Shown here in pieces: positions 1 through 14,535 of a stretch of DNA of 44,266 nucleotides. The position numbers and the translations under genes are program-made. Origin of the DNA: a virus; IMG/VR virus record IMGVR_UViG_3300022200_000097, positions 1-44,266 of that record. One strand, written 5' to 3'. The notes under the pieces are model-generated. The model did not search any database and was not told the origin of the DNA. It worked only from the letters and a program-made list of their open reading frames with translations. Every line of letters begins with the position of its first letter. The first letter of the stretch is position 1.

Positions 1-1131
1 AATGAGTGCTTTCTTCTTTTTAGACATGCCACCCTTAGCAGCCGTGGCCGCCTTCTTCGGACCCTCAATCGCTAACTGCGACCGGCCTGCAGCAATGGCA
101 GCAGGACGCTTCGCTTGCGCCTTTGGGCCTTCAATTGCCAACTTTGCTCGACCCGCAGCAGTCGTTGGACGTGCATACGAGAAGGTTGGAACTCCACGCT
201 CTTTCACTACATCCTTGCTAGCAGTGCTAGCAGTGGGCGCACCCGGACGAGTCGCAACCGCGCTACCCGGACGCTTCACAAGAGCAGTGCTTGGCTTGCG
301 AGCAGCAAGAGACTTCGGTGGGTCAATGGGCTTCTTGGCAGCAGGTTTCTTCACTGTTGGCTTTTTGGCCACAGCGGGAGTTTCCTTCTTCGCAGCCGGG
401 GCCGGATTCTTCTTCACCGCAGGCTTCTTCACTGCAGGAGTCGCTTTCGGTGCAACAGGTGTTGAGTCTCCCCCACCACGAACCGCTGCACGGTTAGCCT
501 CCAACTTACTTTCCCACTTCTTCAAAGCAGTTTTGAAAGCAGAGTCCGTCTTAAAACCTGAACGCACAGGCTTCGGGCCTGTCGTTAACGCCTTGCCGGA
601 CTTGCCACGCATAGCCTGACGGATACCGTCATCAGCAGAGAACTTCGCTGCAGCCCTTGCAGGGCGAGGATCAGGCATCATTAATCTTTTAATGTCTGCC
701 AGTTCCATGTCGCGTGCTTCAGCCTTGGAAAGTTTTGCTGCAGGCTTTGCAGGCTTGACGGTGCGAGGCTTAGTTAAAGCCGCAGTGTTCTTCGCTTCTT
801 TTTTAGCAATTCCTTTTGCCGCATCTGCCGCTAGTTTGCGACCAGCAGCGCCAATAATTGACCCAATCGGGTTTCCAGCCTCTGCAAGTTTAACTTTACG
901 TGTTACTCCACCAGCATTCGTTGTAATCTCAGCGCTGTCACCAAAAAGAAACTTCATTGCTTCCACTACTTGACTAGCAAGAACACCCTCACCGGGACCA
1001 GCGCCTCCGCCGCGTACAAATTTAGGAGTACTGCGCTGTGCAGGTTTACGCGCTTTAAGTGACTCAGGGATTGGCTTACGTGCCCTCAATGATGCAGGGA
1101 TGCTTTTCTTCTTCGAGTTGCTGGGCAGCAT
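1..1131 (-). CDS. Lysine/alanine/proline-rich histone H1-like virion protein, C-terminus cut by window edge
   Basis: The start codon ATG is at 1131 and the frame is still open at base 1, giving 377 residues; the missing C-terminus is seen in the second copy (40352-41842). The protein is very basic, with runs of KKP/AKKP units in the middle like the tails of histone H1 or phage DNA-condensing proteins. This copy has 11 more residues in the KKP tract than the second copy. It lies in the virion operon three genes after the portal. A role in packaged-DNA binding or as an ejected protein is inference; no enzymatic motif is visible. Confidence 0.75.
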   Translation of the reverse strand, partial: MLPSNSKKKSIPASLRARKPIPESLKARKPAQRSTPKFVRGGGAGPGEGVLASQVVEAMKFLFGDSAEITTNAGGVTRKVKLAEAGNPIGSIIGAAGRKLAADAAKGIAKKEAKNTAALTKPRTVKPAKPAAKLSKAEARDMELADIKRLMMPDPRPARAAAKFSADDGIRQAMRGKSGKALTTGPKPVRSGFKTDSAFKTALKKWESKLEANRAAVRGGGDSTPVAPKATPAVKKPAVKKNPAPAAKKETPAVAKKPTVKKPAAKKPIDPPKSLAARKPSTALVKRPGSAVATRPGAPTASTASKDVVKERGVPTFSYARPTTAAGRAKLAIEGPKAQAKRPAAIAAGRSQLAIEGPKKAATAAKGGMSKKKKALI

Positions 1132-1145
1132 TATTATTCCTAGAT

Positions 1146-1463
1146 TTAGAAGCCGCTTCGGCGGCTGATCATTGGTTTGCGTGCGGGCTTGCCACCGTTT
1201 TTATTGGGGCGAGGCATTGGTTTGATCTTGCCTTTTATCGGGGTGTTTATCATTCCCGGTTTACTCGGCATCAGTTTTCTTGCAGGCTTCGGTGCAGGTT
1301 TACGCCCATCAGTAATAGGCTTTATTTTTCGTTCTGGTAATTGCTTAATCTCTTTTTGAATTAGAGGTGACGGCTTCTTCTTTGCGGGACGACCCTCTGT
1401 AATGTATTTAGTTCCCGTGACAGCCGTCTTCTTTGGCCGAGGGGACTTCATTGAGGCAGCCAC
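1146..1463 (-). CDS. Small basic Lys/Pro-rich protein
   Basis: This protein of 105 residues starts at GTG 1463, which overlaps the stop of the preceding gene by one base (TAGTG). It is rich in KPARK/KPAPK motifs, with no hydrophobic core visible, so it is probably extended and nucleic-acid binding. It shares KPxRKxMP-like motifs with its larger downstream neighbour and may be related to it. Residues about 33-50 differ strongly between the two copies in this window while both ends are conserved. Function is not recognised. Confidence 0.7.
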   Translation of the reverse strand: MAASMKSPRPKKTAVTGTKYITEGRPAKKKPSPLIQKEIKQLPERKIKPITDGRKPAPKPARKLMPSKPGMINTPIKGKIKPMPRPNKNGGKPARKPMISRRSGF

Positions 1464-1615
1464 TACTTAGTCTTCTTAGAATTCCCAGCGACAGGCTTAG
1501 GGGTCATGCCGTACTTCACCATGCCACCGCCGACAACAGCGCCACCGTTTTTCTTACCTTCAATGTTTGTAGCGACTGGTGCTTTCACCATTCCGCCTTG
1601 CTTTCCCATACCCAT
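1463..1615 (-). CDS. Small Gly/Met/Lys-rich protein
   Basis: This is a 50-residue protein starting MGMGKQGGMVKAP, with ATG at 1615 preceded by AGGAG-like bases and the portal stop 11 bases upstream. It ends in a basic KKTK tail. It is conserved in the second copy with essentially the same protein, which supports it being a gene. No family is recognised; its place right after the portal suggests a virion component. Confidence 0.65.
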   Translation of the reverse strand: MGMGKQGGMVKAPVATNIEGKKNGGAVVGGGMVKYGMTPKPVAGNSKKTK

Positions 1616-1626
1616 GATTTCTCCTT

Positions 1627-3414
1627 TTATGCGGGGATATTTCTAACCACACGGTTAGACATACTTGCTTGACCTGAACTTGTTAAACCTGCGAGTAACT
1701 GCTGCATTGCTGGCGGACCTTGCGGTAACGCCTCATTAGTAACCGGACCTGAAGGAATCTCTTCCTGTGCAGGTTCAGCGGGTGCTTCTTCACCAAACAT
1801 TGACGGTGCAGCATCTGGTGCTTTCGGTTCCGGTTTCGGTGCTGGTGTGAACGCTTTCGCTACAGCATCCTCCAACGGGACACCCTTTTTACGTTGATCA
1901 ATCACCATCGCCATTTGTTCAATAATCTTTGTGGGATCTTGACCCTGCGAAACCATTTGAGGAATAGCAGCGGCAAGGGATGAAACACCAGCCTTAAGAG
2001 AGTCACGCATCTCTTCCATGTCAATGGCGCGTTCTTCCTCAGCCGCATTCATAGTGACAGGGAGGTTATTGCGAACGAAACGGCGGGAAAGAAGTTTGTC
2101 ACCGCGAGCCTGCAAAGCAAACACGAGTGCACGGTTGGGATCCAAACCAGCCATCAAACCGTATTGCACATTAATGCCATGCTCACCATTAATGTCTTTA
2201 TCGGGTGTGTACGCCAACTTGAACGGCACACCGTTCGCTGAACCGGACACTTCCTTTTTCACACCGGGGAAGAAAGCCTCATCCGTTGCCAACGCTATTG
2301 AGATCGCTTCGCCGAGTGCTTCACCCATGATTGATTGGGCGGTTTTAATTTGCCCATCGAAACCAGCCTGCAACGCTTTAATGCCCTGCCCAGTAACAAT
2401 GGAACCCTCAGATTGCCCGGCGCGAGACTCAGGGAAACGAGTACCTAAACGAAGTTCCTCAGACAAAACATTGTTCTCAGCGAATGCATACTGGGGAACA
2501 TCTAAAGGAACCCTACGGATTTTCTCCGGTGAGTTCGAACGGATCACAGCATCAGGACCAACGGTTAACTGGGTGACATCTTGCGGTAACGCAAGTGGAG
2601 CCTCAACAGATTTTTGTACAGCATCCATCGTGAGCAACGCCAGTTTCGCTTTAGCGGCGAAAACAAACAACACATCATCGAACTGGCCTCGAGCCTCAGA
2701 GTCAAGAGAGTTACGTTGAGCGATAGCCACAGGTACACGCCCAAGAATGTTCCGTGTTTGCGCCAGCAATAAGCCGTCACGTTCAGGAATGAACATCACA
2801 GAGGTCTTAGCGTCATACCAACGCACAATCTCAAGAATCTGGTTAGTGTCCTGTGAACCAAACATGCCACGTTTCATAATTTTGTCAGCAAGTTCGGGGA
2901 ACATAGCGGCAATATCACCGGCTTTACGGCGGAACGTGTGGCAATACAAGTTCACTGTGCCGAAACGGTCACGATCAAAATATGCACCCATCGAGTTCTC
3001 CACATGAATATGTGGACGATTCTCTTTGAAATGAGGCTCGACACGGAACGGGGTAAAACCGTACGTTGCGTACTGGTCCGCAGCGCGAATCATCTCAATA
3101 CCCAAATGGGATGAAGCAATATAAAAGTTTGCTATCTTCGTGCGCTTATCAGCGCGAGTCCGTGAAGACTCCTCAAGGGCCGAGTCACCCGAGGCACTAA
3201 TAGTGGGAATAACACCGGCTTGCTCCGCGAAGTCACGGGCAACAACATCAATAAGATTAGCAACAATAGGACGTGACCATTTCTGGGTAGGGAAAATACC
3301 CGGAAAAACTTGATCAGCATGCCCAGCGCGAACCAAAGACACTTCACGCATACGCTCATCGCGTTCACTGAAACGCTTCTTCAGCGCATCAAACTTGTGT
3401 GCGTAATCGCTCAC
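1627..3414 (-). CDS. Portal protein
   Basis: This protein of 595 residues most likely starts at GTG 3414 (VSDYAHKFD), preceded by GAGGAGT at a good distance. The frame is open further upstream but that stretch overlaps the terminase end. Size, position directly after the terminase and the overall look (mixed alpha/beta body, Pro/Ala/Glu-rich C-terminal tail of about 60 residues) fit the dodecameric portal through which DNA is packaged and ejected. The C-terminal tail carries several differences between the two copies. No catalytic motif is expected. The call rests on context and general resemblance rather than a diagnostic motif. Confidence 0.8.
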   Translation of the reverse strand: MSDYAHKFDALKKRFSERDERMREVSLVRAGHADQVFPGIFPTQKWSRPIVANLIDVVARDFAEQAGVIPTISASGDSALEESSRTRADKRTKIANFYIASSHLGIEMIRAADQYATYGFTPFRVEPHFKENRPHIHVENSMGAYFDRDRFGTVNLYCHTFRRKAGDIAAMFPELADKIMKRGMFGSQDTNQILEIVRWYDAKTSVMFIPERDGLLLAQTRNILGRVPVAIAQRNSLDSEARGQFDDVLFVFAAKAKLALLTMDAVQKSVEAPLALPQDVTQLTVGPDAVIRSNSPEKIRRVPLDVPQYAFAENNVLSEELRLGTRFPESRAGQSEGSIVTGQGIKALQAGFDGQIKTAQSIMGEALGEAISIALATDEAFFPGVKKEVSGSANGVPFKLAYTPDKDINGEHGINVQYGLMAGLDPNRALVFALQARGDKLLSRRFVRNNLPVTMNAAEEERAIDMEEMRDSLKAGVSSLAAAIPQMVSQGQDPTKIIEQMAMVIDQRKKGVPLEDAVAKAFTPAPKPEPKAPDAAPSMFGEEAPAEPAQEEIPSGPVTNEALPQGPPAMQQLLAGLTSSGQASMSNRVVRNIPA

Positions 3415-3427
3415 CCGAACAACTCCT

Positions 3428-5335
3428 CTATAAACGCACCAAACCCGAAGCGTCTTGTGTAAGATCGTCAAGGTTGATCACGTACTGGTTATCAATGTCT
3501 TGTTGCGAAGTAAACTCATTAGTCATGAAGTTCCGTGTATTCGTTACACGGAAAAGAATGTCCCGCGCAACAATCTCGCAAAACCACAACGCCATCACAG
3601 CGTCCATTTTTAATTTAGAACCACGCACACCCGGCTGCCACGTAATTAACTGCTCCACAAGTTTCTTAATATGACCATTAGTGGAAGCATCCGGCAACTC
3701 AATCAAGTTATCGCCAGCATGTTTCTGCGTTAACTGGTCCTTACGGTTCTCCTTAGACCCAAACAAAGTCGCTAGGGAGGCAACACCGTACTCAGGATCC
3801 TGCTTATTAGAACCAGTGAAATGAGGGCGGTACGCGATACCGCGCGAATTCAAATGATTCCTGATCTCCTCATCTTTTGTGAGGAACAACTGAAACGCAT
3901 TCGACTCCACAATGACCGTGTTCGGGCGATACCGTTCCGCCCAGTCCTTCAACAAAGTACGAATAGCGGCAGGGGTAGGGGCCGTCATCACGTGAACATC
4001 CATCACGTAACGCTTCTGTGTACGCCTATCAATAGCGTACGCCACCGCAGCCGTATCCCCGCTCATAGCAGGGTCTAAACCAATCACCCTGTAGAAGTGT
4101 GAACTATCCACAGGGTGACCAGTCGCACCCGCAATGAGTGGACCCGGTTTTCTCATACCGTTAATTGCGCCTCTGACGCACACCGGGTCAAAAATAGCAT
4201 TCTCAGACACGTCATGATTCTGGTAAACCAACGACCATTTACCCGGACCAACCTCGTTACGCACCTTATCCATGCGCCGACCAGACCAACGCTCAAACAT
4301 GCCATCATCATCTGGCTTATCCGTTTCACTCAACGGCTGCTCAGACTTCGGCCACAACGTAACCCAATCCTCAGTTTTCTCTGCATACTCCAACACTGCA
4401 GGCATACCAAGATACGTCCACGGAACCAAAGCATCCGTGTAATGATCCTCATTACGTAACTCGCGATACAAATCCACAGCAGACACCCGAGTACCCACCA
4501 CCAACAGTTGGCCGCCATCAGGAGGCAAACGAGAAGCAACCTCCTGCCGAACCCAATCCTGCTGCTTAGGCCACTCAGAAGCATTCGACAACGTCACAAC
4601 GTCATCCAAAACAATCAACGAAGCACGAGACCCGTAAATCTGGCCGCCCATACCCAGAGCCTCAATCGTAGGATCCTTCTCGCCAGAGTCCCGCGTATCG
4701 CCACCCAAATAAACCTTGTTCGAAGACCACTGATCCGCCGTAGCCTTATAGCCATCAGCTGGACCAAACGCCATCTGCATGTCCGCATAGCGAGGATGAG
4801 TCAACCGCTGCTTAATCGCATACAAATACTTCTTAGCCTGCTCCAGTGTCTTCGACACAATCAGCACGTTAATGTTCGGATCCTTCACAATCCGGTACGT
4901 AACATAATTAATCGTTACCGTCATCGACTTCGCGTGGTTCGGAGGCACGTTAACAAGTAGCCGCGACAAACCAGCACTACCCGGCTCGTAAATCATTTCA
5001 TCCCGCAACCAAGAAGGAGACCTGCCCTCAAGCAGGTCGACAACATTCTGCATGTGAGGGAACACCCGAGCATGCAGGTACTTCTCAGAAAACTCCGCAA
5101 AAGAAATATCCGCATTACGGGCAGATAAGGCAGCGTCAGTCTGCCGCAATCTGACCGAATCAATCGTAACCGCGAAATCAGGGGCTACCCGCCGTTGAGT
5201 GTCATACCACGAGCGCGAGCGGCCAATGACGCGAAGCGCATCAGTAATAGTCCGCCCTTGACGCACCGCGTCAACCAACTCGCGACGAGCCTCATCAGGC
5301 GCAACACGCCTGCGAGGTGAGTCCGCACGAGCCAC
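3428..5335 (-). CDS. terL: Terminase large subunit with N-terminal HTH-like extension
   Basis: This is the DNA-packaging motor, 635 residues. The ATPase half has a Walker-A-like PPNHAKSM at about 131-138, Walker B LIVLDD at 240-245 and a coupling motif LLVVGTR at about 277-283. The nuclease half has RNase-H-fold acidic residues D421 (IGLDPAMSGD), E477 (VIVESNA) and D578 (KMDAVMAL). The first 65 residues look like the helix-turn-helix of small terminases (TITDALRVIGRSRSWYD followed by APDFAVTIDS), and no separate small-subunit gene is seen nearby. GTG 5335 is chosen because GAGGAGT precedes it. It is the first gene of the leftward virion operon. Confidence 0.95.
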   Translation of the reverse strand: MARADSPRRRVAPDEARRELVDAVRQGRTITDALRVIGRSRSWYDTQRRVAPDFAVTIDSVRLRQTDAALSARNADISFAEFSEKYLHARVFPHMQNVVDLLEGRSPSWLRDEMIYEPGSAGLSRLLVNVPPNHAKSMTVTINYVTYRIVKDPNINVLIVSKTLEQAKKYLYAIKQRLTHPRYADMQMAFGPADGYKATADQWSSNKVYLGGDTRDSGEKDPTIEALGMGGQIYGSRASLIVLDDVVTLSNASEWPKQQDWVRQEVASRLPPDGGQLLVVGTRVSAVDLYRELRNEDHYTDALVPWTYLGMPAVLEYAEKTEDWVTLWPKSEQPLSETDKPDDDGMFERWSGRRMDKVRNEVGPGKWSLVYQNHDVSENAIFDPVCVRGAINGMRKPGPLIAGATGHPVDSSHFYRVIGLDPAMSGDTAAVAYAIDRRTQKRYVMDVHVMTAPTPAAIRTLLKDWAERYRPNTVIVESNAFQLFLTKDEEIRNHLNSRGIAYRPHFTGSNKQDPEYGVASLATLFGSKENRKDQLTQKHAGDNLIELPDASTNGHIKKLVEQLITWQPGVRGSKLKMDAVMALWFCEIVARDILFRVTNTRNFMTNEFTSQQDIDNQYVINLDDLTQDASGLVRL

Positions 5336-5758
5336 AAGTACTCCTCAACCAAAACTAGGGTAAACAAAAGGGGTGCAACAGGGTCCAAGTAAGGACAGAC
5401 CCCACCCCAATCACAAACACAGGGGAACACCCCATCACAACGAAGTTGCTCAGGGGTTTATGAAGTAGTACCTACTTCTTTAGGGGACTAGAAAAACACC
5501 ATTTTGCAAGGGGTAACCCCAAACTATTTTATTTAGAAACGGACATATGGGGATAAACCAGTACAGAATTAGGTGAATATTTTTCACCGGACACATACAT
5601 ACCTAGGGGGGGGTGGTATTAAAAAGCCTCGGGTCGTCGAGCGGCCGCCTCTAGAATTCGTCCTCCGATACAAGTACGAGATGTAAAAAGACACCTCCTA
5701 CCGGGCGCGCGCGCGTGCGCGGTGTCGTTCTGCAGACCACTGTCTTCCTCATGTGGTC
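5336..5758. other. Divergent intergenic region with dyads; candidate packaging/control region
   Basis: I see no convincing gene in these 423 bases between the leftward terminase operon and the rightward early genes. The left part is AT-rich and holds two perfect dyads: GAAGTAG-TAC-CTACTTC at 5462-5478 and GGTGAA-TATTT-TTCACC at 5572-5588. It also has a G8 run at about 5615-5622, a cluster of six-cutter sites (5641-5659) and an alternating GC tract (5704-5720). Promoters for both operons and the packaging site would be expected here, but I cannot point to convincing -35/-10 pairs. Confidence 0.6.
5641..5659. other. Cluster of NotI, XbaI and EcoRI sites (polylinker-like)
   Basis: GCGGCCGC (5641-5648), TCTAGA (5650-5655) and GAATTC (5654-5659) lie within 19 bases, at the point where base composition turns from AT-rich to GC-rich. 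Such clustering is typical of cloning linkers but can arise by chance in DNA of mixed composition. Confidence 0.5.
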
Positions 5759-5866
5759 ATGGATGGCCCTTGTGTGCCTATATGTGGCGGTTCCCCTCAC
5801 GATTCCCTCTATGATTTGACAGATAGCGGATACTGGGAACCAGAACGGCAACCGGCCGTTCATTGA
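5759..5866 (+). CDS. Small hypothetical protein, first of the early + strand genes
   Basis: The ORF of 35 residues (MDGPCVPICGG...) starts at ATG 5759 and ends at 5866. It has two cysteines near the N-terminus and an acidic/aromatic C-terminal half. The ribosome binding site is weak, and an in-frame GTG two codons upstream is possible. Support is limited to an open frame with plausible composition that reaches close to the next gene. Confidence 0.45.
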   Translation: MDGPCVPICGGSPHDSLYDLTDSGYWEPERQPAVH

Positions 5867-5882
5867 TCGGATGGAGTTTGTG

Positions 5883-6023
5883 ATGAAAGATGCAAAGCCT
5901 GTAGCGTTGCCGGCTTGTTGGGAGTGCGCGGCGGATGGTGGCGTGTGGGAGTTTGATTGTGATCAATGCAATGTGGATGGCCAATACGACCGTAACGGGA
6001 TCGTGCGTTGGGATTATGTTTGA
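5883..6023 (+). CDS. Small zinc-ribbon-like protein
   Basis: This 46-residue protein has two CxxC pairs, C12-C15 and C26-C29, arranged as a small zinc ribbon, followed by a charged C-terminus. ATG 5883 is chosen because GGATGGAG precedes it by about seven bases; an in-frame ATG at 5871 is the alternative. It is the last gene before promoter P1. No function is recognised beyond probable metal binding. Confidence 0.6.
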   Translation: MKDAKPVALPACWECAADGGVWEFDCDQCNVDGQYDRNGIVRWDYV

Positions 6024-6035
6024 TTGTTTGGGGTA

Positions 6036-6065
6036 TTGCAACACGTTTGACACGTGTGAGATAGT
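6036..6065 (+). promoter_or_regulatory. Early promoter P1 with embedded operator
   Basis: TTGCAA (-35, 6036-6041), 18-bp spacer, GATAGT (-10, 6060-6065). The spacer holds the inverted repeat CACGT-TTGAC-ACGTG. The same arrangement recurs at 6868, 7487 and, with a degenerate dyad, at 9094, each time just upstream of an early gene block. A regulator bound to the dyad would block RNA polymerase. Confidence 0.75.
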
Positions 6066-6074
6066 TGGGTTATG

Positions 6075-6095
6075 GCCCCGGGAGATTCCCGGGGC
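6075..6095 (+). promoter_or_regulatory. 5' UTR hairpin after P1
   Basis: This is a perfect 8-bp stem, GCCCCGGG/CCCGGGGC, with loop AGATT, beginning a few bases after the expected transcription start. It is followed by a TTTACGTTTGGAAGG leader that supplies the ribosome binding site for the gene at 6121. Equivalent hairpins of different stem sequence follow P2 and P3, so the structure rather than the sequence is conserved. Confidence 0.75.
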
Positions 6096-6120
6096 TTTAC
6101 GTTTGGAAGGGATTAAGGCG

Positions 6121-6867
6121 ATGGCTAAAGTTACAAGCGCGATAGTGTGGCAGGGTGTTTCAATGATTGATGGTGGTCCGATTGTGATGATCGTAACCGG
6201 GCTTGGTTCTGGTGGTTCGGCTAATCGTAAGACGGGCGACATGGTGCAAACGTGGATTTTGCGTTCGGATATGGATCCGATCGCGGCAATGAAATTGGAT
6301 TTGGATCGGTCGATCTGTGGGGATTGCCCACTTCGTGGCTACCAGAATCAGGACACGGGTAAGCGTGTGGGGCGGGCTTGCTACGTCAATGTCGGACAGG
6401 CTCCGCTTTCGATCTGGCGGGCTTATGCCCGCGGTTCGTATCCCGTGATGGATCCGGCCGATGTCGCGGAATTGATCGCGGGCCGCGGGATCCGGCTCGG
6501 ATCCTATGGGGATCCAAGCCTTGTGCCTCTGCAGGTTCTGCGGGATCTTGTGTCGACGTCGAAGGTTCGCACGGGTTACACGCACCAGTGGCGGAATGTG
6601 GACCCGGGCTATCGTGAGTTGCTGATGGCTAGTGCGGATACGGTCACAGATCGACGTGATGCACGCCTCGCGGGATGGCGGTCCTTTGTGGTCCTGCCCA
6701 CTAGTGCGGATCGTCCCGATCGTGCGGTGGAGTGTGCCGCCACCCGCGAGGTCAACAAACTGACGTGTTTCGATTGCGGCATGTGTTCCGGGGTTAAGGC
6801 TGGCAAGGTGGCTACGGACGTGTTCATCCTTGCGCACGGTACGGGATCCAAGTACGTCACGGCATGA
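6121..6867 (+). CDS. Conserved-looking phage protein with paired cysteines, function unknown
   Basis: This protein of 248 residues starts at ATG 6121 behind GGAAGGGATTAAGGCG. The N-terminal part has CGDCPLRG and a following ACYVNVG; the C-terminal part has CFDCGMC, so up to six cysteines could bind zinc or an Fe-S cluster. The middle contains RLGSYGDPS and YTHQW segments. I recall similar proteins from environmental phages and plasmids, but no function. The gene is GC-richer than the virion genes and holds 16 GATC sites. It is the sole gene between P1 and P2. Confidence 0.8.
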   Translation: MAKVTSAIVWQGVSMIDGGPIVMIVTGLGSGGSANRKTGDMVQTWILRSDMDPIAAMKLDLDRSICGDCPLRGYQNQDTGKRVGRACYVNVGQAPLSIWRAYARGSYPVMDPADVAELIAGRGIRLGSYGDPSLVPLQVLRDLVSTSKVRTGYTHQWRNVDPGYRELLMASADTVTDRRDARLAGWRSFVVLPTSADRPDRAVECAATREVNKLTCFDCGMCSGVKAGKVATDVFILAHGTGSKYVTA

Positions 6868-6897
6868 TTGCAACACGTTTGACACGTGGTGCATAGT
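6868..6897 (+). promoter_or_regulatory. Early promoter P2 with embedded operator
   Basis: TTGCAA (6868-6873), 18-bp spacer, CATAGT (6892-6897). The spacer carries the same CACGT-TTGAC-ACGTG dyad as P1. The -35 hexamer begins at the base after the stop codon of the preceding gene, so the promoter is packed tightly between genes. Confidence 0.75.
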
Positions 6898-6905
6898 TGG
6901 GATTA

Positions 6906-6928
6906 GGGGGCAGGAAATGCCTGCCCCC
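6906..6928 (+). promoter_or_regulatory. 5' UTR hairpin after P2
   Basis: A perfect 9-bp stem, GGGGGCAGG/CCTGCCCCC, with loop AAATG lies just after the expected start of transcription and before GAAAGGG, the ribosome binding site of the gene at 6952. The stem sequence is unrelated to the P1 and P3 hairpins, but position and five-base loop match. Confidence 0.75.
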
Positions 6929-6951
6929 TTGCGATTGAAAGGGTGATTGAA

Positions 6952-7251
6952 ATGTTTACAGGATTTATTGTTGGTGATTGTGATTGTTCGGGTACTCACC
7001 TGCAGGGTGAGGTTGTGGCCTCACGTAGGTTGATTGAGTCGGTGTTTGGCGCACCTACTTTTGAGGATGAAAGCAGCAAGGTCACCACGGAATGGGTGAT
7101 CAAGTTTGATGATGGTTTAGTGGCAACGATTTACGATTGGAAACGCTACGAGGATGGCGCTCCGGGCATGGATGAGGTTTATGCGTGGCACATTGGCGGG
7201 TCGGTCGATGTCGTGGCTGAGCGGGTACATGAGGTGATCGGTCATGGCTGA
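6952..7251 (+). CDS. Conserved-type phage hypothetical protein
   Basis: This is a 99-residue, acidic protein. ATG 6952 is preferred over the in-frame GTG 6943 because GAAAGGG then has proper spacing. A central EWVIKFDDGLVATIYDWKRYE segment predicts beta strands, and the pattern reminds me of conserved actinophage hypothetical proteins, without a known role. The N-terminus has GDCDC. Its last bases overlap the next start (ATGGCTGA), implying coupled translation. Confidence 0.75.
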   Translation: MFTGFIVGDCDCSGTHLQGEVVASRRLIESVFGAPTFEDESSKVTTEWVIKFDDGLVATIYDWKRYEDGAPGMDEVYAWHIGGSVDVVAERVHEVIGHG

Positions 7252-7486
7252 ATCGTTGAGCGTTGAGGATAGTTGGGATGATCACGATTGGACAGTGGCG
7301 CAGGTGAGTGAGTTGCCTGACTGTGATTTTTGCGAGGCCGTTGCGGGTTTCGATGTTGAGATGCGCGGTCATGATGGTGGGGGCTGGGCGTTTGTGTGTG
7401 GTGAGTGTTTCGCTGATCATGCTAGCCCTCGCGTGATGATGTTCGGTCTAGGTTTGGGCAGGGGCCAGCGTCTAGTTTGTGAGTGA
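7244..7486 (+). CDS. Small zinc-ribbon-like protein
   Basis: This 80-residue protein starts at ATG 7244, overlapping the preceding gene by eight bases. It has CDFC and later CGEC, the two CxxC halves of a treble-clef or zinc-ribbon fold, around a Gly-rich middle. It is likely a small DNA- or protein-binding factor, function unknown. Confidence 0.7.
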   Translation: MAESLSVEDSWDDHDWTVAQVSELPDCDFCEAVAGFDVEMRGHDGGGWAFVCGECFADHASPRVMMFGLGLGRGQRLVCE

Positions 7487-7516
7487 TTGAAGCACGTTTG
7501 ACACGTGCTTTATAGT
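7487..7516 (+). promoter_or_regulatory. Early promoter P3 with embedded operator
   Basis: TTGAAG (7487-7492), 18-bp spacer, TATAGT (7511-7516). The dyad in the spacer is the longest of the set: GCACGT-TTGAC-ACGTGC. It begins directly after the stop of the upstream gene and drives the chained small genes from 7573 on. Confidence 0.75.
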
Positions 7517-7523
7517 TGGACCT

Positions 7524-7550
7524 AGGAGGGCCGGAGATACCGGCTCTCCT
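7524..7550 (+). promoter_or_regulatory. 5' UTR hairpin after P3
   Basis: An 11-bp stem, AGGAGGGCCGG/CCGGCTCTCCT with one G-T pair, and loop AGATA. It is followed by TTTCGTTTGGAAGGAG, the ribosome binding site, very like the leader after P1. The stem buries an AGGAGG, so a rival ribosome site is hidden when it folds. Confidence 0.75.
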
Positions 7551-7572
7551 TTCGTTTGGAAGGAGCAAGGCA

Positions 7573-7803
7573 ATGAGTGCAGTTGAGTACGTAATTGACG
7601 GCAAAGAGGCTGAGGCTCGAGCGTGGCTGCAGGTCATGGCTGCAGTGCAGCATTACATGCAGACTCAGCGTGATGTGATCACCTCTGAGGTTGGCATGCA
7701 TGTCGAGGGTGATGAAGAGGGCGCGAAGTATTGGGCGCAGGGTTTAGCATCTGATGTTGAAGCGTACGTCACTGAAATTTTCAGAGAGTGGGAGCAGTCA
7801 TGA
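7573..7803 (+). CDS. Small alpha-helical hypothetical protein
   Basis: The protein has 76 residues, starting at ATG 7573 behind GGAAGGAG. It is mostly predicted helix and acidic, with no cysteines or membrane segment. Its stop overlaps the next start as ATGA. First gene of the P3 transcript; no family recognised. Confidence 0.65.
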   Translation: MSAVEYVIDGKEAEARAWLQVMAAVQHYMQTQRDVITSEVGMHVEGDEEGAKYWAQGLASDVEAYVTEIFREWEQS

Positions 7804-7985
7804 GCAACATGACAACCAAGGCGCAGGTGCGCAGTGACTTCACCTATACCCGCGAACTGATGCGGCAGGCTGAGGTCGCACTGAAGAACGATGACATCGA
7901 CGAGTTGTCGATTCTGGCACATGAACTTAGCGGGAGCGTGGCTACCGTATTCCAATACATGATCGAGAAAGGCGGTGCGCACTGA
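7800..7985 (+). CDS. Small alpha-helical hypothetical protein
   Basis: The protein has 61 residues, ATG 7800 in an ATGA overlap with the preceding gene. It is charged and helical (RELMRQAEVALKNDDIDELS), of the size of small dimeric helical-hairpin proteins. No family recognised. Confidence 0.65.
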   Translation: MSNMTTKAQVRSDFTYTRELMRQAEVALKNDDIDELSILAHELSGSVATVFQYMIEKGGAH

Positions 7986-8131
7986 TGGCGCAAGTATTTG
8001 TGAACGTGGATAGTGACGATGAGGCACGCGATTTTGAGATCGAGGTGTCAGATCCTGCTGCTTTCATTGAGCAGTTGGATTTGGTTTTGTTGCAGTTGAA
8101 ATTAAAAATAGATTTAGAGGAGGCATCATGA
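7985..8131 (+). CDS. Small acidic hypothetical protein
   Basis: The protein has 48 residues, starting at ATG 7985 in a TGATG overlap and ending in an ATGA overlap with the next gene. The N-terminal half looks like beta strands (MAQVFVNVDSDDE), the C-terminal half like an amphipathic helix. Its last codons (GAG GAG GCA) double as the ribosome binding site of the next gene. Confidence 0.6.
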   Translation: MAQVFVNVDSDDEARDFEIEVSDPAAFIEQLDLVLLQLKLKIDLEEAS

Positions 8132-8289
8132 GTGAAATAAGTTTAGTTCGGATTCGCGTAACAGTAAATGGTTTACCGACTGATGATTTGGAAATGGATG
8201 TGGACAAGTCACAGGTGCATGCTCTCAGAATTGCATTAGAGAATGCGTACACCCCGTTCGTATCCGATCTATCGAAGGGGGAATCATGA
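8128..8289 (+). CDS. Small hypothetical protein
   Basis: The protein has 53 residues, ATG 8128 in an ATGA overlap. An alternating pattern (SLVRIRVTVNG) suggests a beta hairpin followed by a helix. The 3' end, which encodes SDLSKGES, closely resembles the end of the next gene (FDLSKEAS), at DNA level too (ATCTATCGAAGG), pointing to small duplications in this block. Confidence 0.6.
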   Translation: MSEISLVRIRVTVNGLPTDDLEMDVDKSQVHALRIALENAYTPFVSDLSKGES

Positions 8290-8522
8290 CTGAATACAGA
8301 ATGACAATCACCGATGATGCGGCTGCAAGTTTGGCTGCATCAATCCTTGACAGAAAGAGACATCAAGTCGAGGTTATACATGGAGTCATGAAGGACATGA
8401 CCTATCTAGGAGAGAGCCTAAGGGCTGCGACTGTGACACCTCGTGACACATGGAACGCATTAGACAAGATGTTCGAGTCGCTTCAAGACTTGGTATTCGA
8501 TCTATCGAAGGAGGCATCATGA
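8286..8522 (+). CDS. Small hypothetical protein
   Basis: The protein has 78 residues, ATG 8286 in an ATGA overlap. It has a short strand (MTEYRMTITDDA) then long helices. It ends in an ATGA overlap, and its GGAGGCATCATG 3' end repeats the one at 8118-8130. No function recognised. Confidence 0.65.
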   Translation: MTEYRMTITDDAAASLAASILDRKRHQVEVIHGVMKDMTYLGESLRAATVTPRDTWNALDKMFESLQDLVFDLSKEAS

Positions 8523-8677
8523 CATCGATACAACTACCGACATCATGCGAGTATCACTACACGGAGTACGTGCTAGCCGATGAGCCACGACCTGACGGTG
8601 GCTTCGACGTGCGTGCCTTGTGGTGCGGGATATGCGACGTGATGCACGTCGCTGAGGAATACAAGGAGGAATCATGA
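8519..8677 (+). CDS. Small protein with CxxC motif
   Basis: The protein has 52 residues, ATG 8519 in an ATGA overlap. C10 and the pair C36-C39 (WCGICD), with nearby histidines, could bind one zinc ion. The 3' end AAGGAGGAATCATG is the coupled ribosome site and start of the next gene. Confidence 0.65.
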   Translation: MTSIQLPTSCEYHYTEYVLADEPRPDGGFDVRALWCGICDVMHVAEEYKEES

Positions 8678-8835
8678 GTGACATCACATACACAACAGAC
8701 TGTTGCGGAGCGCAACGCAAATTGGAAGACACAACAACATGCATATCGGTTGATGCTTTTGGGCGAGAGCATGGTGAACTTTCTTATTATTGCCGTGGCG
8801 AATGTGAAGAACAACCGAAGGAGGAATCATCATGA
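8674..8835 (+). CDS. Small cysteine-rich protein
   Basis: The protein has 53 residues, ATG 8674 in an ATGA overlap. It contains C10-C11, C23, C40 and C44, enough for a zinc-binding fold. The C-terminal EEQPKEESS again encodes a ribosome binding site (AAGGAGGAATCATC) for the next gene. Confidence 0.6.
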   Translation: MSDITYTTDCCGAQRKLEDTTTCISVDAFGREHGELSYYCRGECEEQPKEESS

Positions 8836-9071
8836 TGTTCGATGGCATTGGTAACGCAGTGAAGTTACGTAATGGCAAGTACGACGGTGACCACGGCACG
8901 TACTGGGCGTGGCCCGTGGATGGGTACTACGACCTGCACTTCGCAGATGTGGGCGTGAGGCCAGATGGTAGCGACGTGATCGAGGAGTTGCTGCCGTCAT
9001 TGAAGGAGGCCCGTGCGAGAGCGCGGGAACTCAGCACGCCAGATCCGTGGCTTCGGTATGTCGGAGCCTAA
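8832..9071 (+). CDS. Small hypothetical protein, WP-rich
   Basis: The protein has 79 residues, ATG 8832 in an ATGA overlap. It has a first half rich in aromatic residues (YWAWPVDGYYDLHFADVG), suggesting a compact beta domain, and a helical C-terminus. It is the last gene of the P3 chain; promoter P4 follows. Confidence 0.65.
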   Translation: MMFDGIGNAVKLRNGKYDGDHGTYWAWPVDGYYDLHFADVGVRPDGSDVIEELLPSLKEARARARELSTPDPWLRYVGA

Positions 9072-9093
9072 ACCCTTGAAACTTGGGCTAGGA

Positions 9094-9123
9094 TTGCAAC
9101 ATGTCAGACACACACACTACAAT
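9094..9123 (+). promoter_or_regulatory. Early promoter P4 with variant operator
   Basis: TTGCAA (9094-9099), 18-bp spacer, TACAAT (9118-9123). The spacer begins CATGTCAGACAC, a variant of the CACGTTTGACAC of P1-P3, so the right half of the dyad is missing. No hairpin follows; GAAAGGACGCA leads directly into ATG 9136. Confidence 0.7.
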
Positions 9124-9135
9124 CGAAAGGACGCA

Positions 9136-9240
9136 ATGAACCTGTTATTCATGGCAACATGGCTCGCGTTAGGCATCGGCCTAACCCAAGTCATCGCCGA
9201 CTACACACTGAGAGAGGACCGTGATGAGACCACTTACTGA
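9136..9240 (+). CDS. Small single-span membrane protein
   Basis: The protein has 34 residues starting MNLLFMATWLALGIGLTQVI, a single hydrophobic helix of about 20 residues, then a short charged tail. ATG 9136 follows GAAAGGA. It is the first gene after P4. Role unknown. Confidence 0.6.
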   Translation: MNLLFMATWLALGIGLTQVIADYTLREDRDETTY

Positions 9241-9400
9241 GGTCGAAGTACTACTCACGCACAACATCATCTATCGCAACGAATACCTAGGGTTACTGGG
9301 TGTCGAGCGCATCGATGGGGTCACTGGCTGCTTCGAGATCTTCGAAGAAGGCGGGCGCACTTGGTACACAAACTTCGAAGAGAACGGTGAAGAAGAATGA
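9224..9400 (+). CDS. Small acidic hypothetical protein
   Basis: The protein has 58 residues, ATG 9224 inside the end of the preceding gene, behind GAGAGGACC. It is strongly acidic at the C-terminus (FEENGEEE), with alternating hydrophobics suggesting beta strands (GVERIDGVTGCFEIFEEGG). It ends in an ATGA overlap. Not recognised. Confidence 0.6.
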   Translation: MRPLTEVEVLLTHNIIYRNEYLGLLGVERIDGVTGCFEIFEEGGRTWYTNFEENGEEE

Positions 9401-9588
9401 TTGAGAGTCTTCTGATCCTGCTGGGATTCATGGCGATGATTGCCCTCGTGTCCTACTACATGGGCAAGACAGCAGGCCAAGCACAGAGTGAAAAGCAATA
9501 CAACTACACACGAATGCAACAAGCCAGACGCTTGCTGCATGCAGAACGCAACACAACACACCCTACAGATAAGGAAAAAGGAAGATGA
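9397..9588 (+). CDS. Small membrane-anchored protein
   Basis: The protein has 63 residues, ATG 9397 in an ATGA overlap. Residues 3-22 form a hydrophobic helix (LLILLGFMAMIALVSYYM), followed by a basic, soluble, helical tail. Likely an N-anchored inner-membrane protein. Role unknown. Confidence 0.6.
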   Translation: MIESLLILLGFMAMIALVSYYMGKTAGQAQSEKQYNYTRMQQARRLLHAERNTTHPTDKEKGR

Positions 9589-10538
9589 ATACATTGACAG
9601 CAGCACAGACAGTAGCCCCTGCACGTAGCCCGTTTGGGCTGGCAATGCAGGACGTATCAAGTTCCACAACATTGCAGGATGCAATGCGAGAAGCATCAAT
9701 CGACTTCGAGGTGCAACGCTGGGATCTCACGGCAAGCAGTGAGACTGGCATCAGCCCCGTCACTAACCATGTGGGGCTGGTACGTACCGACAACAACAAC
9801 GTGATCAGTGTTGTGGGTAATAACTATGGTGTGATTCAAAACCATGAAGCATTCGCACCATTGGACTACCTGATGCGTGAAGGCTTCATCCAGTCCATTG
9901 ATTCTGCTGGGTCACTGGACAATGGCGCGAAGGTGTTCATGCTGGCTAACTTGGCGGCATCATCACGTATCCAAGGTGATGCACATACACGCCAGTTGCT
10001 CATCGCCACCACTCATGATGGCAGTGGTGCTACCACTGCACGTGGATGGTTGCACCGCATCCATTGCACGAACCAGATCCCTGCCATCTTCAGTAAGAAG
10101 GGAGCCGTTCAACGTATACGTCACACGTCACGTGCCCAGAATTATTTGCAAGACTTCCGTCATGCAGTGATCGCAAGCATGCATTCCATTGGCATCATGG
10201 AGGATCGCATCAACACACTGAACGACATCGACACGACAGCGTGGCAGGTCGAGCAGTTCATTGATCGCATGTTCCCCAAGCCCATCGCTGCAATGGATGT
10301 CAGCAAGTACCGTGCTGCTAGCACGGTGAATGACCGTCAGCGTGGATACCTTGCCGGGTTGATCCATGACGCACCAACGAACGAGAACATTCGCGGTAAG
10401 GCTTCAGCGTTGTTCGCTGCGGCCGTGGAATACAGCGACTACTACTCACGTGGCAAGCGCAGCGAGCGCATCCTGCGTGGTCGTGACGTTGAATTTAAGA
10501 CACGTGCGCTGCATCTTGCTGAGTTAGTGACAGCCTGA
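9585..10538 (+). CDS. DUF932 (phage/plasmid-like) protein
   Basis: This 317-residue protein matches the DUF932 pattern widespread on phages and plasmids: a segment linking an early domain to NYGVIQNHEAF, then GAKVFMLANL, a TTHDGSGA segment and IHCTNQIPA, and a helical C-terminal half. Start ATG 9585 is in an ATGA overlap. The biochemical role of the family is not known to me; it is often near replication or anti-defence genes. It is the largest gene of the early rightward block. Confidence 0.85.
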   Translation: MNTLTAAQTVAPARSPFGLAMQDVSSSTTLQDAMREASIDFEVQRWDLTASSETGISPVTNHVGLVRTDNNNVISVVGNNYGVIQNHEAFAPLDYLMREGFIQSIDSAGSLDNGAKVFMLANLAASSRIQGDAHTRQLLIATTHDGSGATTARGWLHRIHCTNQIPAIFSKKGAVQRIRHTSRAQNYLQDFRHAVIASMHSIGIMEDRINTLNDIDTTAWQVEQFIDRMFPKPIAAMDVSKYRAASTVNDRQRGYLAGLIHDAPTNENIRGKASALFAAAVEYSDYYSRGKRSERILRGRDVEFKTRALHLAELVTA

Positions 10539-10852
10539 TGGCAACACCAACAGAAATCAAAACCGTGGCCAAGATCCTTGACCCGTCCCTATCGGATGAG
10601 TCTAAGGACATGGCTGCGGACATCATCGAGGCACTGGATGCGGTGCGTGCTAAGCGTGACCAGTGGATAGTGATCGCGAGACTCTCCAACGAGAGTCCCG
10701 TGTTCGCTGCTGGGTCATGGACCACGCGCCTTCAAGCGGAGAAGAAGATCAACAAACTATCCCTTGTGAACAAGAACGGTGACCAATCAAAGACTGGGGT
10801 GATGGTGGCACGCATGATGCAACCGAACTGGATCGATTCGCTAGGTGATTAA
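10538..10852 (+). CDS. Small hypothetical protein
   Basis: The protein has 104 residues, ATG 10538 in a TGATG overlap with the DUF932 gene. The N-terminal half is helical; residues about 45-70 (WIVIARLSNESPVFAAGSWTT) look like a beta meander. Last gene of the rightward early block, directly before a bidirectional terminator. Not recognised. Confidence 0.65.
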   Translation: MATPTEIKTVAKILDPSLSDESKDMAADIIEALDAVRAKRDQWIVIARLSNESPVFAAGSWTTRLQAEKKINKLSLVNKNGDQSKTGVMVARMMQPNWIDSLGD

Positions 10853-10895
10853 AAGAACGGAGGGGTTGATCAGTGAAGACCAACCCCTCCTCTTT
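10852..10895. terminator. Bidirectional terminator between convergent operons
   Basis: Perfect 10-bp stem GGAGGGGTTG (10859-10868) with CAACCCCTCC (10881-10890) and a 12-base loop, flanked by AAAAGA on the left and TCTTT on the right, so it can serve transcripts arriving from both sides. Confidence 0.85.
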
Positions 10896-10914
10896 ACCCG
10901 CGCTGCCCGCGCTG

Positions 10915-11583
10915 TTAGTAAGGGTTGCGACCACCCAGAAACTCATTGACTTTCCGTAAACCTGAAGTAACCAACTGATCCACGCGTTGATGAGAGATCT
11001 CCATCTCATCCGCAATCACATGCAGTGTCGCGTTATCACTGAACCTACGCAACAGGATGGATCGTGTGCGTTCATCGAGTGAACGCATAGCCCTGTCCAT
11101 GTCAGCAACCATCGCAAAAATATCGTTGCCTTCGCTGATCAGTTTCGTTTTCCTTTTGCCACCCATCTCGGCCGGATCCATTACTTGACCTGCGAGATCA
11201 TGATCACCTGAATCCCACACTTTGATCAGTGACTCGATCAGTGTGGAGCGGTAAAAGAATTCATCTTGAGGGTTGTATCCCAGTTTGCGTGCCTTCTCTG
11301 CACGTGCCCGCCTTTCAGCGTGACGCGAAAGGAACGTGACCATCGCGTACTCACCTGACTTGCGTTCGGCTTTGTCTTCCCGGAACAGGTACTCACGTAC
11401 CTTGTCCTGCCTGCGTAACGCGTACTCCACTGCTATGGATTGCAAGTCTTCACGATCCACGTACCCGTAGAACCTGCGATGTACTACGCGTGATGCTATT
11501 ACAGCGAGGCGAACAACATCCTCCCAAATGGGATCGTCCATACTTATTTCTTCATGTGTCTCGCGTGTTGCATTCTCTACCAC
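10915..11583 (-). CDS. Sigma-70-like RNA polymerase sigma factor
   Basis: This protein has 222 residues. The C-terminal part (about 170-215; LDERTRSILLRRF...HVIADEMEISHQRVDQLV) is a clear sigma region 4 helix-turn-helix, and the N-terminal half (VDREDLQSIAVEYALRRQ) resembles region 2 of sigma factors and related phage proteins. GTG 11583 is chosen for the GGGGAG eight bases before it, giving a seven-base overlap with the upstream gene. It is last in the leftward replication operon, so it may switch transcription to later genes. Whether it binds core polymerase is not shown. Confidence 0.75.
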   Translation of the reverse strand: MVENATRETHEEISMDDPIWEDVVRLAVIASRVVHRRFYGYVDREDLQSIAVEYALRRQDKVREYLFREDKAERKSGEYAMVTFLSRHAERRARAEKARKLGYNPQDEFFYRSTLIESLIKVWDSGDHDLAGQVMDPAEMGGKRKTKLISEGNDIFAMVADMDRAMRSLDERTRSILLRRFSDNATLHVIADEMEISHQRVDQLVTSGLRKVNEFLGGRNPY

Positions 11584-12332
11584 GAGTACTGCTCCCCTTC
11601 GAATACGAAACTCTTGTTCACGATGGGTATGGGTACAGGTACAACGGTCTTGCCATGCTCATAGATCACACCGAACCCTTGCTGCCAGTTCGCTATGCCT
11701 TTCGTGTACTTGGCTTCCTTCAAGTCCATCAGGTTGCCTACTTCGAATCCCCATAGTGTGCGTGTCAACGTGCCACCCACACTGGTGGAGTAGGGCTGTA
11801 AACCTAATCGATGTGAGTGTCCACACACCACCGACTTACCGGTCTTCCTTGTTAGCCCCGCTGCTGTTTGTCCTGCCACTTGGGATGCTCCGGCCTCATC
11901 ACCGTGCAGTGCAACCCATCCGGGTGCAATGCCATCCCAACCATGCTTGTGAAACTTGATGCTGAGTTGCGGTAAACGCAGGAAGTTCTCAAGTTCTAAC
12001 TCTGGCAACCCAAGGAATCCCGGTGCGTTACGCATGACTTTATGGAACAGTCTGTCTGTGTGATTCGAACGAATCATGTGCTGCACTTGCAAGTTGTGCA
12101 ACACTTGCACTGTAGTGTCCCGATCCTTACCGATGCTGCGCTCGTACTCGAGCGGAGTACCCGCACTCCAACGACTGATCGTTTGCATATCCATTTCATC
12201 GCCGATACTTACCACTACATCGTTGTCGGTCTTGTGATCAGCAATGCATTGAGCGACCGCATCCACTGCCTTCTTGTCATGGTAAGGAACTTGAAGGTCA
12301 CTGATGATCCACTTGCGGGACATTGGGGTCAT
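11577..12332 (-). CDS. Calcineurin-like metallophosphoesterase
   Basis: This protein of 251 residues has the metal-binding blocks of the family in order: ISDLQ (D12), SIGDEMD (44-48), SNHTD (N90, H91), LHGDE (H143) and VCGHSH (171-174). The usual DxH of block I is DLQ here, so one metal ligand appears replaced. Phage members are often near primase and nuclease genes and may act on nucleic-acid ends or cyclic nucleotides; the substrate is unknown. ATG 12332 overlaps the preceding stop as ATGA. Confidence 0.88.
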   Translation of the reverse strand: MTPMSRKWIISDLQVPYHDKKAVDAVAQCIADHKTDNDVVVSIGDEMDMQTISRWSAGTPLEYERSIGKDRDTTVQVLHNLQVQHMIRSNHTDRLFHKVMRNAPGFLGLPELELENFLRLPQLSIKFHKHGWDGIAPGWVALHGDEAGASQVAGQTAAGLTRKTGKSVVCGHSHRLGLQPYSTSVGGTLTRTLWGFEVGNLMDLKEAKYTKGIANWQQGFGVIYEHGKTVVPVPIPIVNKSFVFEGEQYSW

Positions 12333-13254: not shown

Positions 13255-13646
13255 CGCTTCTTCTCCTCAAAGCATGCGAGCATGCCGGGATTCCAACGGG
13301 TAGACCAATGCCATTTGCCATTGCCCCAATCCCATGTCCGCCAGAACACTGCATCCTGAATAAACTTCGGGACTTTACTGGGACGTACGCCAACTAAGTG
13401 GTGGTAGCCAGCACGTGGGGCGTAAAGATCCCACGTAGTCTGGATGAATGAGTAAGCACCCGCGCCACCGGGGCCATCGGAACGGTAATTCCCACGGGAC
13501 TCCCGGTAAATAATGCATTTGCGGATCTCTTCTTTCTTCGGCATGTAGTAGGCAGTGCCCTTGTATAAGGAGTCAGGGATGTTGCTTGTGTCAATGTTTA
13601 CTGGGGTAAACATCAGTACAGAACTCAGTACCAACGCGGTGATCAT
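13251..13646 (-). CDS. Secreted transglycosylase/Rpf-like muralytic enzyme
   Basis: The protein has 131 residues with a hydrophobic N-terminus (MITALVLSSVLMFTP) that looks like a short signal peptide or anchor. The body fits the lysozyme-like fold of resuscitation-promoting factors: catalytic-type glutamate E49 in IYRESRGNY, then AGAYSFIQTTWDLYA. It would cleave peptidoglycan glycan strands. It is unusual to find it in the replication operon, far from the endolysin at 22131-22640. ATGA overlaps on both sides tie it to the protease and primase genes. Confidence 0.8.
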   Translation of the reverse strand: MITALVLSSVLMFTPVNIDTSNIPDSLYKGTAYYMPKKEEIRKCIIYRESRGNYRSDGPGGAGAYSFIQTTWDLYAPRAGYHHLVGVRPSKVPKFIQDAVFWRTWDWGNGKWHWSTRWNPGMLACFEEKKR

Positions 13647-14194
13647 TTCTTCTCCACGCTTACTTCATCGAAGGTGTAGTTGAATGCGGCACTGAACGGG
13701 TCAAGGGTTTCCGCAGCCCTCATGGCCTGCAAATGGTCAGCGCCAGTGATCAACGCACCCAGTGCGTACGCACCGCCTGTACCTATGCCGTATAGCCCAT
13801 GCATGCGGTTCATTACCGTGCCATCGGATTCGATTTGGAACACGAACCCTCGAACGATGATGATCATTTGGAAATCAACACCATCACTACCTAACTCGTA
13901 ACCTTCACGCCGCAATGCACGCTTCAAGTCAGGTACGAATGTGGTGATTAGCCAGTAGTAGGACCACTCTTCATCCACCTGCACGCTGGCTTCCTCGTCA
14001 GGCTGTGGTGGTTCCCAGTCGTATTGAATGTAGTCGCACAAGCGACCATTTCCTGCGGTTCCGTATGCCAAACTAAAGTTGCGGCAAATCTTTCGCGCTG
14101 TCTTACTGACAAAAGATTCAGACTCTGTTGAGACTTGGTAGTCCGCATACATGACGGCCCTACCCTCTTCTTGGATACCGATGATTGTTGTCAT
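13643..14194 (-). CDS. Proteasome beta/HslV-like Ntn protease
   Basis: The protein has 183 residues. After removal of Met1, Thr would be residue 1 (MTTIIGIQEE, compare HslV MTTIVSV), with Asp at mature position 17 (MYADYQ) as in the catalytic Asp17, a Lys before Ile (TARKI) near the Lys33 place, TAGNG, and GIGTGGAYALGAL matching HslV's IGSGGPYA. No propeptide is present with the ATG 14194 start, which has GGAGAGG before it; an upstream TTG is less likely. It could be a self-compartmentalised peptidase or modify the host proteasome; neither is shown. Confidence 0.85.
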   Translation of the reverse strand: MTTIIGIQEEGRAVMYADYQVSTESESFVSKTARKICRNFSLAYGTAGNGRLCDYIQYDWEPPQPDEEASVQVDEEWSYYWLITTFVPDLKRALRREGYELGSDGVDFQMIIIVRGFVFQIESDGTVMNRMHGLYGIGTGGAYALGALITGADHLQAMRAAETLDPFSAAFNYTFDEVSVEKK

Positions 14195-14535
14195 GCGCCT
14201 CTCCTCAACTTTGGTGGAACCCAACGACCACTGCCCGTACTTCGTGTACGTGCAGCACGATGCGTTGCCTTCATCTCTTTACCGATGCGTTCAGTGATGA
14301 ACGCGAGTGCTTCCCTGTATTCGAGTCGCTCCCGCAACATCACGATGTTCACTGCGGTTCCACCAGCGCCACATGCGTGGCAATGCCAGAGTCCTTTACC
14401 CACATTCATTGATGCGGATGCAACACGTTCTTCATGCACGGGGCATCGCGTGTTGCGTTCACCGCTACCAGTAACGGGTAAGTCGTAATGGTTTAACACT
14501 GCAACCATTACCTCTTCGAGTTGATCCGTGTCCAT
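14191..14535 (-). CDS. CHC2-type primase zinc-finger protein
   Basis: This protein of 114 residues has the ligands C31 and H34 (RCPVHEE) and C52/C55 (WHCHACGAGG), the CHC2 zinc ribbon that primases use to recognise template. The rest is helical with a basic C-terminal tail (RAARTRSTGSG). It lacks any catalytic core, which is supplied by the separate TOPRIM gene at 12610-13254. ATG 14535 lies in a TGATG overlap; an adjacent GTG is the alternative. Confidence 0.88.
   Translation of the reverse strand: MDTDQLEEVMVAVLNHYDLPVTGSGERNTRCPVHEERVASASMNVGKGLWHCHACGAGGTAVNIVMLRERLEYREALAFITERIGKEMKATHRAARTRSTGSGRWVPPKLRRGA

Follow-up and report, generated by a model that had tools for sequence, protein, structure and literature searches.

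The stretch of DNA analysed here, referred to as the window, is an IMG/VR virus genome (record IMGVR_UViG_3300022200_000097) of 44,266 bases with a GC content of 50.6%; we are concerned with the promoter cassettes, U0–U4, that are repeated in its rightward early block (5.8–10.85 kb), and with the repressor predicted to control them. A preliminary description of the sequence had listed four promoters in this block, and we indeed found all four with the -35, 18-bp spacer and -10 it had given them (at 6036, 6868, 7487 and 9094); the dyad CACGTTTGACACGTG lies in the spacer of the first three, each of which is followed by a hairpin with a five-base loop. The set was incomplete, in that comparison with a related locus, L215, revealed an additional hairpin unit, U0 (5815–5861), and the -10 of U4 is not kept in L215, although its operator-like site is. 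The predicted features of the block are as follows.

5815–5834 (+), U0: TTTGACA spacer core (from 5815) and -10 GATACT (5829–5834), without a TTG-type -35; aligned with U0 of L215.
5843–5861 (+), U0 5′ hairpin GAACGGC-AACCG-GCCGTTC; the L215 counterpart, AGCGGC-ATGGC-GCCGCT, has a compensatory pair.
6036–6065 (+), U1 promoter/operator: TTGCAA, 18-bp spacer with CACGTTTGACACGTG (6042–6056), -10 GATAGT (6060–6065).
6074–6096 (+), U1 5′ hairpin GGCCCCGGG-AGATT-CCCGGGGCT.
6121–6867 (+), gene after U1: phrog_2554, no assigned function.
6868–6897 (+), U2 promoter/operator: TTGCAA, 18-bp spacer, dyad at 6874–6888, -10 CATAGT (6892–6897).
6905–6929 (+), U2 5′ hairpin AGGGGGCAGG-AAATG-CCTGCCCCCT.
6952–7251 (+), gene after U2: L215 ortholog at 61%.
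7487–7516 (+), U3 promoter/operator: TTGAAG, 18-bp spacer, dyad at 7493–7507, -10 TATAGT (7511–7516).
7524–7550 (+), U3 5′ hairpin AGGAGGGCCGG-AGATA-CCGGCTCTCCT.
7573–7803 (+), gene after U3: L215 ortholog at 83%.
9094–9123 (+), U4: operator-like site TTGCAACATGTCAGACACACA, TTGCAA-18-TACAAT (possible -10), no hairpin.

The 44 kb contain exactly three copies of the dyad, those of U1–U3; U4 has the site and lacks both the perfect dyad and the hairpin. Promoters alone would not stand out here, as a plain sigma-70 consensus scan gave 4 matches in the region versus 5.4 in shuffled sequences, i.e., no promoter excess. The combination of promoter and hairpin, in contrast, exceeds chance: when a -35, 17–19 bp, a -10 and, no more than 14 nt further on, a strong hairpin were required jointly, a scan of both strands of the window and the comparison loci (1.76 Mb) returned 10 matches, three of them in the window, five in three related loci (L067, L068 and L069) and two background. 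We also considered TTGACA as the true -35 and rejected it, since no -10 with A2 and T6 was located 16–18 bp downstream of it.

L215, found via its DUF932 protein (64% identity), spans 12,257 bp and is, like the other relatives compared, a metagenomic fragment. The gene order of the window's early region is kept in it, with eight window queries matching at 43–83%, and all five units have counterparts at orthologous places. In an alignment of eight units, TTGACA is invariant in 8/8, and the NANNNT hexamer taken as the -10 keeps both A2 and T6 in 8/8. The conserved part of the spacer is the asymmetric core TTTGACA plus the upstream TTGCAAC, and not the perfect dyad, which the preliminary description had read as the operator. 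L215 U2 retains a dyad with symmetric changes (ACATG-CTTGACA-CATGT), while in L215 U1 and U3 the dyad arms are broken, though the genes and the TTTGACA core stay; a loss of this kind in related phages is what that description had itself named as speaking against its proposal. Because of this loss, the putative operator is better described as the asymmetric site TTGCAACAYGTNNGACAC than as a dyad. A weight matrix for the 21-bp motif, trained on L215 alone and then run on the window, gave its four highest scores to U1, U2, U4 and U3, which nothing in shuffled sequence equalled. Neither the exact window unit nor a relaxed motif was found elsewhere in IMG/VR, where the bare 15-mer gave 27 single, scattered matches, consistent with chance.

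A coordinated regulon under one repressor had also been proposed, and this idea is supported by the matrix ranking and by a candidate repressor of the cluster A/R4 family that the window encodes. This gene and the remaining candidate sites, all on the minus strand, are given below.

18104–18559 (-), candidate immunity repressor, 151 aa, with an N-terminal helix-turn-helix and a Stoperator-type domain (phrog_3929, PDB 7r6r).
18676–18696 (-), partial site TTGCAACATGT within the promoter region of the repressor gene; locus L176 keeps TTGCAACAYGT.
17354–17374 (-), additional 21-bp site, ATGCAACATGTCTGACACAAG, where a gene of the leftward operon begins (L215-trained matrix, E about 0.17).
11553–11573 (-), weaker 21-bp site ATGCAACACGCGAGACACATG at the sigma-factor gene start (E about 0.67; L215 counterpart at 11665 (-)).

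The 18104–18559 protein matches phrog_3929 (transcriptional repressor, E 3.4e-25) and also 172 records from Streptomyces phages, of which those listed as best have ~36% identity and are annotated as immunity or transcriptional repressors. An hmmsearch of PDB with a profile of 16 relatives (alignment A3) gave one significant chain, the TipsytheTRex immunity repressor 7r6r (E 1.1e-9), which was also the sole match below 0.001 (E 4.9e-5) when Foldseek was run with an AlphaFold2 model of the repressor (predicted local distance difference test, pLDDT, 82.6; predicted template-modelling score, pTM, 0.59). Template-modelling scores between the model and 7r6r are ~0.5 and the root-mean-square deviation is 6.5, with a domain placement that differs or is uncertain. 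The 7r6r protein is a two-domain monomer that binds an asymmetric site and in which the DNA-contacting Arg108 is essential (PMC9283540); this residue aligns with a KKR motif, R103, of the window repressor and is nearly invariant in A3. In L5, operator GGTGGCTGTCAAG and early promoter Pleft overlap (PMC1934351); the complement of this operator, CTTGACAGCCACC, has TTGACA in common with the window core. For Streptomyces phage R4, too, a repressor-stoperator system has been reported (PMC10276819). By these matches, the window repressor is a divergent homolog of the repressors of the cluster A mycobacteriophage L5 and of R4, and, since these families bind asymmetric operators or stoperators, the units most likely form a repressor-(st)operator regulon of a divergent kind. 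Read in the simplest way, U0–U4 would be operators of this family.

Around the repressor gene itself, L176, whose repressor is 89% identical, keeps the repressor-promoter site as TTGCAACACGT. The repressor/integrase intergenic region (18685–18755) contains three TTGCAAC copies and an inverted repeat ACATGT-N7-ACATGT, which may possibly serve autoregulation or integrase control. A half-site model, ACAYGT...ACRTGT, that would link the units to the repressor promoter performed no better than chance.

The second constituent of the cassettes is the hairpin. Those of U1, U2 and U3 fold with -22.9, -23.0 and -23.2 kcal/mol (z -2.3, -3.3 and -2.3), the U4 leader is unstructured (z +1.0), and the U0 hairpin is unremarkable as a fold by itself (z -0.3), yet aligns with the L215 hairpin unit. 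They start 6–10 nt past the -10, which puts their first base around +1 to +3 of the transcript as predicted, and the repeats sit ~60–90 bp ahead of the start codon. The Shine-Dalgarno sequence lies outside the hairpin in the computed folds, and gating of translation, one of two roles suggested in the preliminary description, is not favoured; the other, a structured 5′ end that would protect the RNA, fits the hairpin geometry. From the window to L215 the stems change symmetrically, an A-T pair of U0 becoming G-C, U1 being one pair shorter and U2 one pair longer, and the loops of U1–U3 are kept as A-(A/G)-A-T-N. The U0 loop deviates, being AACCG in the window and ATGGC in L215.

Relatives with terL at 71–78% identity have other spacer sequences in the same promoter-hairpin frame. 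In L067, L068 and L069 (terminase 77% identical) and in L171, TTGCAG is followed by an 18-bp spacer in which GTGYATGAGGG takes the place of TTTGACA, then by a -10 and a hairpin whose loop is ATGGT, ATGGC or AAATG; as in the window, the last unit of L171 is without a hairpin. Low-GC relatives (terminase ~72%) have a hairpin after the first unit, with loops AAATC, AAATT, AAAGT, AAATA, AAACT, ATGGT or AGATA. Among 23 hairpins from many phages, counts that are inflated by shared ancestry and come from hairpins placed by hand around the loop, the inner four pairs are formed in 98%, versus 63% (maximum 79%) in 5000 arm shuffles, a covariation of the stem arms. The loop consensus in this set, which leaves out window U0 (loop AACCG) and L171 unit 1 (six-pair stem, loop CCG), is A-D-R-K-N, with A at base 1 and a purine at base 3 in 23/23 each. 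Rfam 15 covariance models gave no meaningful match in window 5300–10900 at E up to 1, and none at gathering score in eight relatives. Judged by these comparisons, the clade as a whole conserves the 5′ hairpin as an element in its own right, distinct from the spacer site. Strong short-loop hairpins, followed by a repeated Shine-Dalgarno motif, AACAAGGGAGAGAG, are also seen in many early intergenic regions of Streptomyces phage Manuel (locus L175, 36400–44300).

The low-GC relatives (L070, L072, L073, L078, L088, L099, L108, L126, L133, L136 and others) have a paired element in the promoter spacer, GATAGCA-N4-N3-N4-TGC before TATATA, with 3–5 copies per phage in the longer loci and fewer in short fragments. 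A scan made without requiring pairing yielded 74 distinct GATAGCA-N10..13-TGC sequences, in which all four inner pairs are complementary in 60, three in 0 and none to two in 14; RNAalifold showed two-sided changes and no broken pairs. Copies differ even within one genome (GCAAAGC, GCAGACC, GCACAGC and GCATAGC in L070), which is hard to explain by an ordinary dimeric operator: a stem that varies and stays paired is not required by such an operator, and would be by a structure-read element. Although the window spacer itself does not show the pairing pattern, the element bears on how the spacer of the whole clade is read. It might, tentatively, be a covarying 7-bp hairpin, giving these promoters a structure-read signal in place of a sequence-read operator, as part of a broader and likewise speculative proposal: a new family of 5′-leader RNAs in uncultivated actinophages, in which a promoter-linked hairpin has its A-D-R-K-N pentaloop read by a dedicated factor while the stems drift and the promoter-spacer elements are exchangeable. 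An N4-like hairpin promoter was a further idea considered for the low-GC relatives.

The best explanation, and one we consider reasonably probable, is that repeated promoter cassettes are combined with the phage's own asymmetric-site repressor and a separate protective 5′ hairpin. The early region of what would be a temperate phage would thus consist of cassettes U0–U3 plus a site-only copy, U4. Each cassette would be a sigma-70-like promoter (TTGCAA-like -35, 18-bp spacer, -10 NANNNT) in which the -35 and spacer double as the asymmetric site TTGCAACAYGTNTGACAC for the monomeric two-domain repressor (18104–18559), whose predicted DNA target in the units is TTGCAACACGTTTGACACGTG. In the prophage, the repressor would occupy all cassettes, and perhaps also the gene-start sites of the leftward operon, and block initiation. 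During lytic growth each cassette would fire, and the first bases of the mRNA would fold into the A-D-R-K-N pentaloop hairpin, most likely shielding the early mRNAs from 5′-end-dependent decay. Protection of the 5′ end is the likeliest role of the hairpin by analogy with 5′ hairpins that stabilise mRNAs against RppH/RNase E and RNase J (reviewed in PMC3997798). Several observations weigh against this model. Only ~6–8 candidate sites were found, compared with 20–30 in cluster A, and three of them have a perfect dyad symmetry that binding by a monomer would not call for; RNA protection alone does not explain the constrained loop sequence; and the contig of L215, a 12-kb fragment, does not include a repressor. 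Moreover, a search for the repressor and the integrase in 30 terL relatives gave no match, albeit with many records being fragments and with no positive control, yet these relatives keep the promoter-hairpin frame, and the frame is therefore not tied to the repressor.

The constrained loop makes a loop-binding factor the main, serious rival to 5′-end protection. The pentaloop hairpin would then be a recognition site for a protein or RNA on all early transcripts, e.g., a nut/put-like antitermination site, a processing element or the site of a translational regulator, with the repressor part of the model unchanged. While the stems vary freely, the loop stays A-D-R-K-N, the loops ATGGT, AAATG and AGATA recur across different lineages, and a rough scan, in which many of the unit hairpins went undetected, found only ~4–6% of the remaining hairpins with five-base loops in these loci to agree with this consensus. 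The deviating U0 loop, the lack of an Rfam family match in the stretches searched and the fact that no candidate RNA-binding protein was identified speak against it, and we regard it as possible but the less favoured reading.

Two other explanations appear weaker still. That a dimeric repressor binds the spacer dyad as a symmetric operator of the classical type, in line with the dyad reading of the preliminary description, agrees with the perfect dyad of three units and with the symmetric changes in L215 U2; U0, U4, L215 U1 and L215 U3 lack the symmetry, however, all but U4 keep TTTGACA, and the only repressor found is of a monomeric, asymmetric-site family (PMC9283540), which renders this view unlikely. 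That the hairpins act as intrinsic terminators or attenuators, halting read-through from upstream or aborting the new transcript, is even more doubtful. Two of the three hairpins pass a loose terminator scan, the stems are strong and GC-rich, and Manuel (Beephvirinae) has many intergenic hairpins, but those of the window lie just past the promoter, keep a specific loop and have no real U-tract after the stem (CTTTACG, CTTGCG, CTTTCG).

As for the rest of the genome, the window ends (1–3555 and about 40745–44266) have ~3.55 kb in common at only 92.8% identity, which suggests a circular or permuted genome of ~40.7 kb whose assembly joined two variants of one region. Terminase, portal and other structural genes run leftward, and the AT-rich divergent region between the leftward terminase and the early block (5400–5800) probably contains a late promoter. 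A leftward replication/regulation operon (18.5 to 10.9 kb) encodes the repressor, an exonuclease, a DnaB-like ATPase, WhiB, an HslV-like peptidase, a Toprim protein, a metallophosphoesterase and a sigma-like protein; the window also encodes a tyrosine integrase. The HslV/proteasome-like peptidase (13643–14224 (-); phrog_1040, E 1.4e-20) lies inside the replication operon, and the sigma-like protein (Sigma70 region 4; 10915–11583 (-)) adjoins the metallophosphoesterase (11577–12332 (-)). Manuel, with a terminase of 42% identity, also has the metallophosphoesterase/sigma-K pair. A probably actinobacterial host is suggested by WhiB and by the Streptomyces-type repressor; searches of GTDB genomes for prophage relatives via terL and integrase found none, and no host genome was identified.

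In summary, the data extend the repressor-stoperator immunity system, as a prediction, to uncultivated phages of probable actinobacterial hosts, with a concrete candidate operator set, and bring to light a 5′ hairpin, not described before, that is found across the clade and has a constrained loop and compensated stems, in a cassette design that many related viruses have in altered sequence. The closest parallel is with cluster A mycobacteriophages (L5, Bxb1, TipsytheTRex), which have a homologous repressor with helix-turn-helix and Stoperator domains and repeated sites that are oriented with transcription, overlap an early promoter and have a TTGACA-containing core. In the window, the candidate sites U1–U4 and the two at minus-strand gene starts are all oriented with transcription, but the candidates number ~6–8 rather than 20–30, and three are dyads. 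Unlike in cluster A, the window site is ~21 bp long (TTGCAACAYGTNTGACAC) rather than 13 bp, its few copies are mostly inside promoters, and the hairpin-bearing promoters start their message with a 5′ hairpin. Streptomyces phage R4 supplies the type of the closest annotated repressors, the likeness being one between repressors; it differs in that the window repeats are promoter cassettes with hairpins and the window integrase is a tyrosine recombinase. The preliminary description had instead pointed to the start-associated sequences (SAS) and extended SAS (ESAS) of cluster K. These, too, are short repeats that accompany only some of the early genes and in part contain inverted repeats, but SAS are 13 bp long and lie 3–7 bp before start codons (PMC3203893), whereas the window repeats are promoter-borne, and the SAS sequence GGGATAGGAGCCC has no match in the window with up to 2 mismatches, so the resemblance does not hold. 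Lastly, the window hairpins are similar to 5′ stabilising stem-loops of the ompA and papA type and to those of RNase J substrates, in being strong, at or near the predicted 5′ end and in leaving the Shine-Dalgarno sequence free; they differ from these in their constrained pentaloop and in recurring both within a single genome and throughout a clade of phages.

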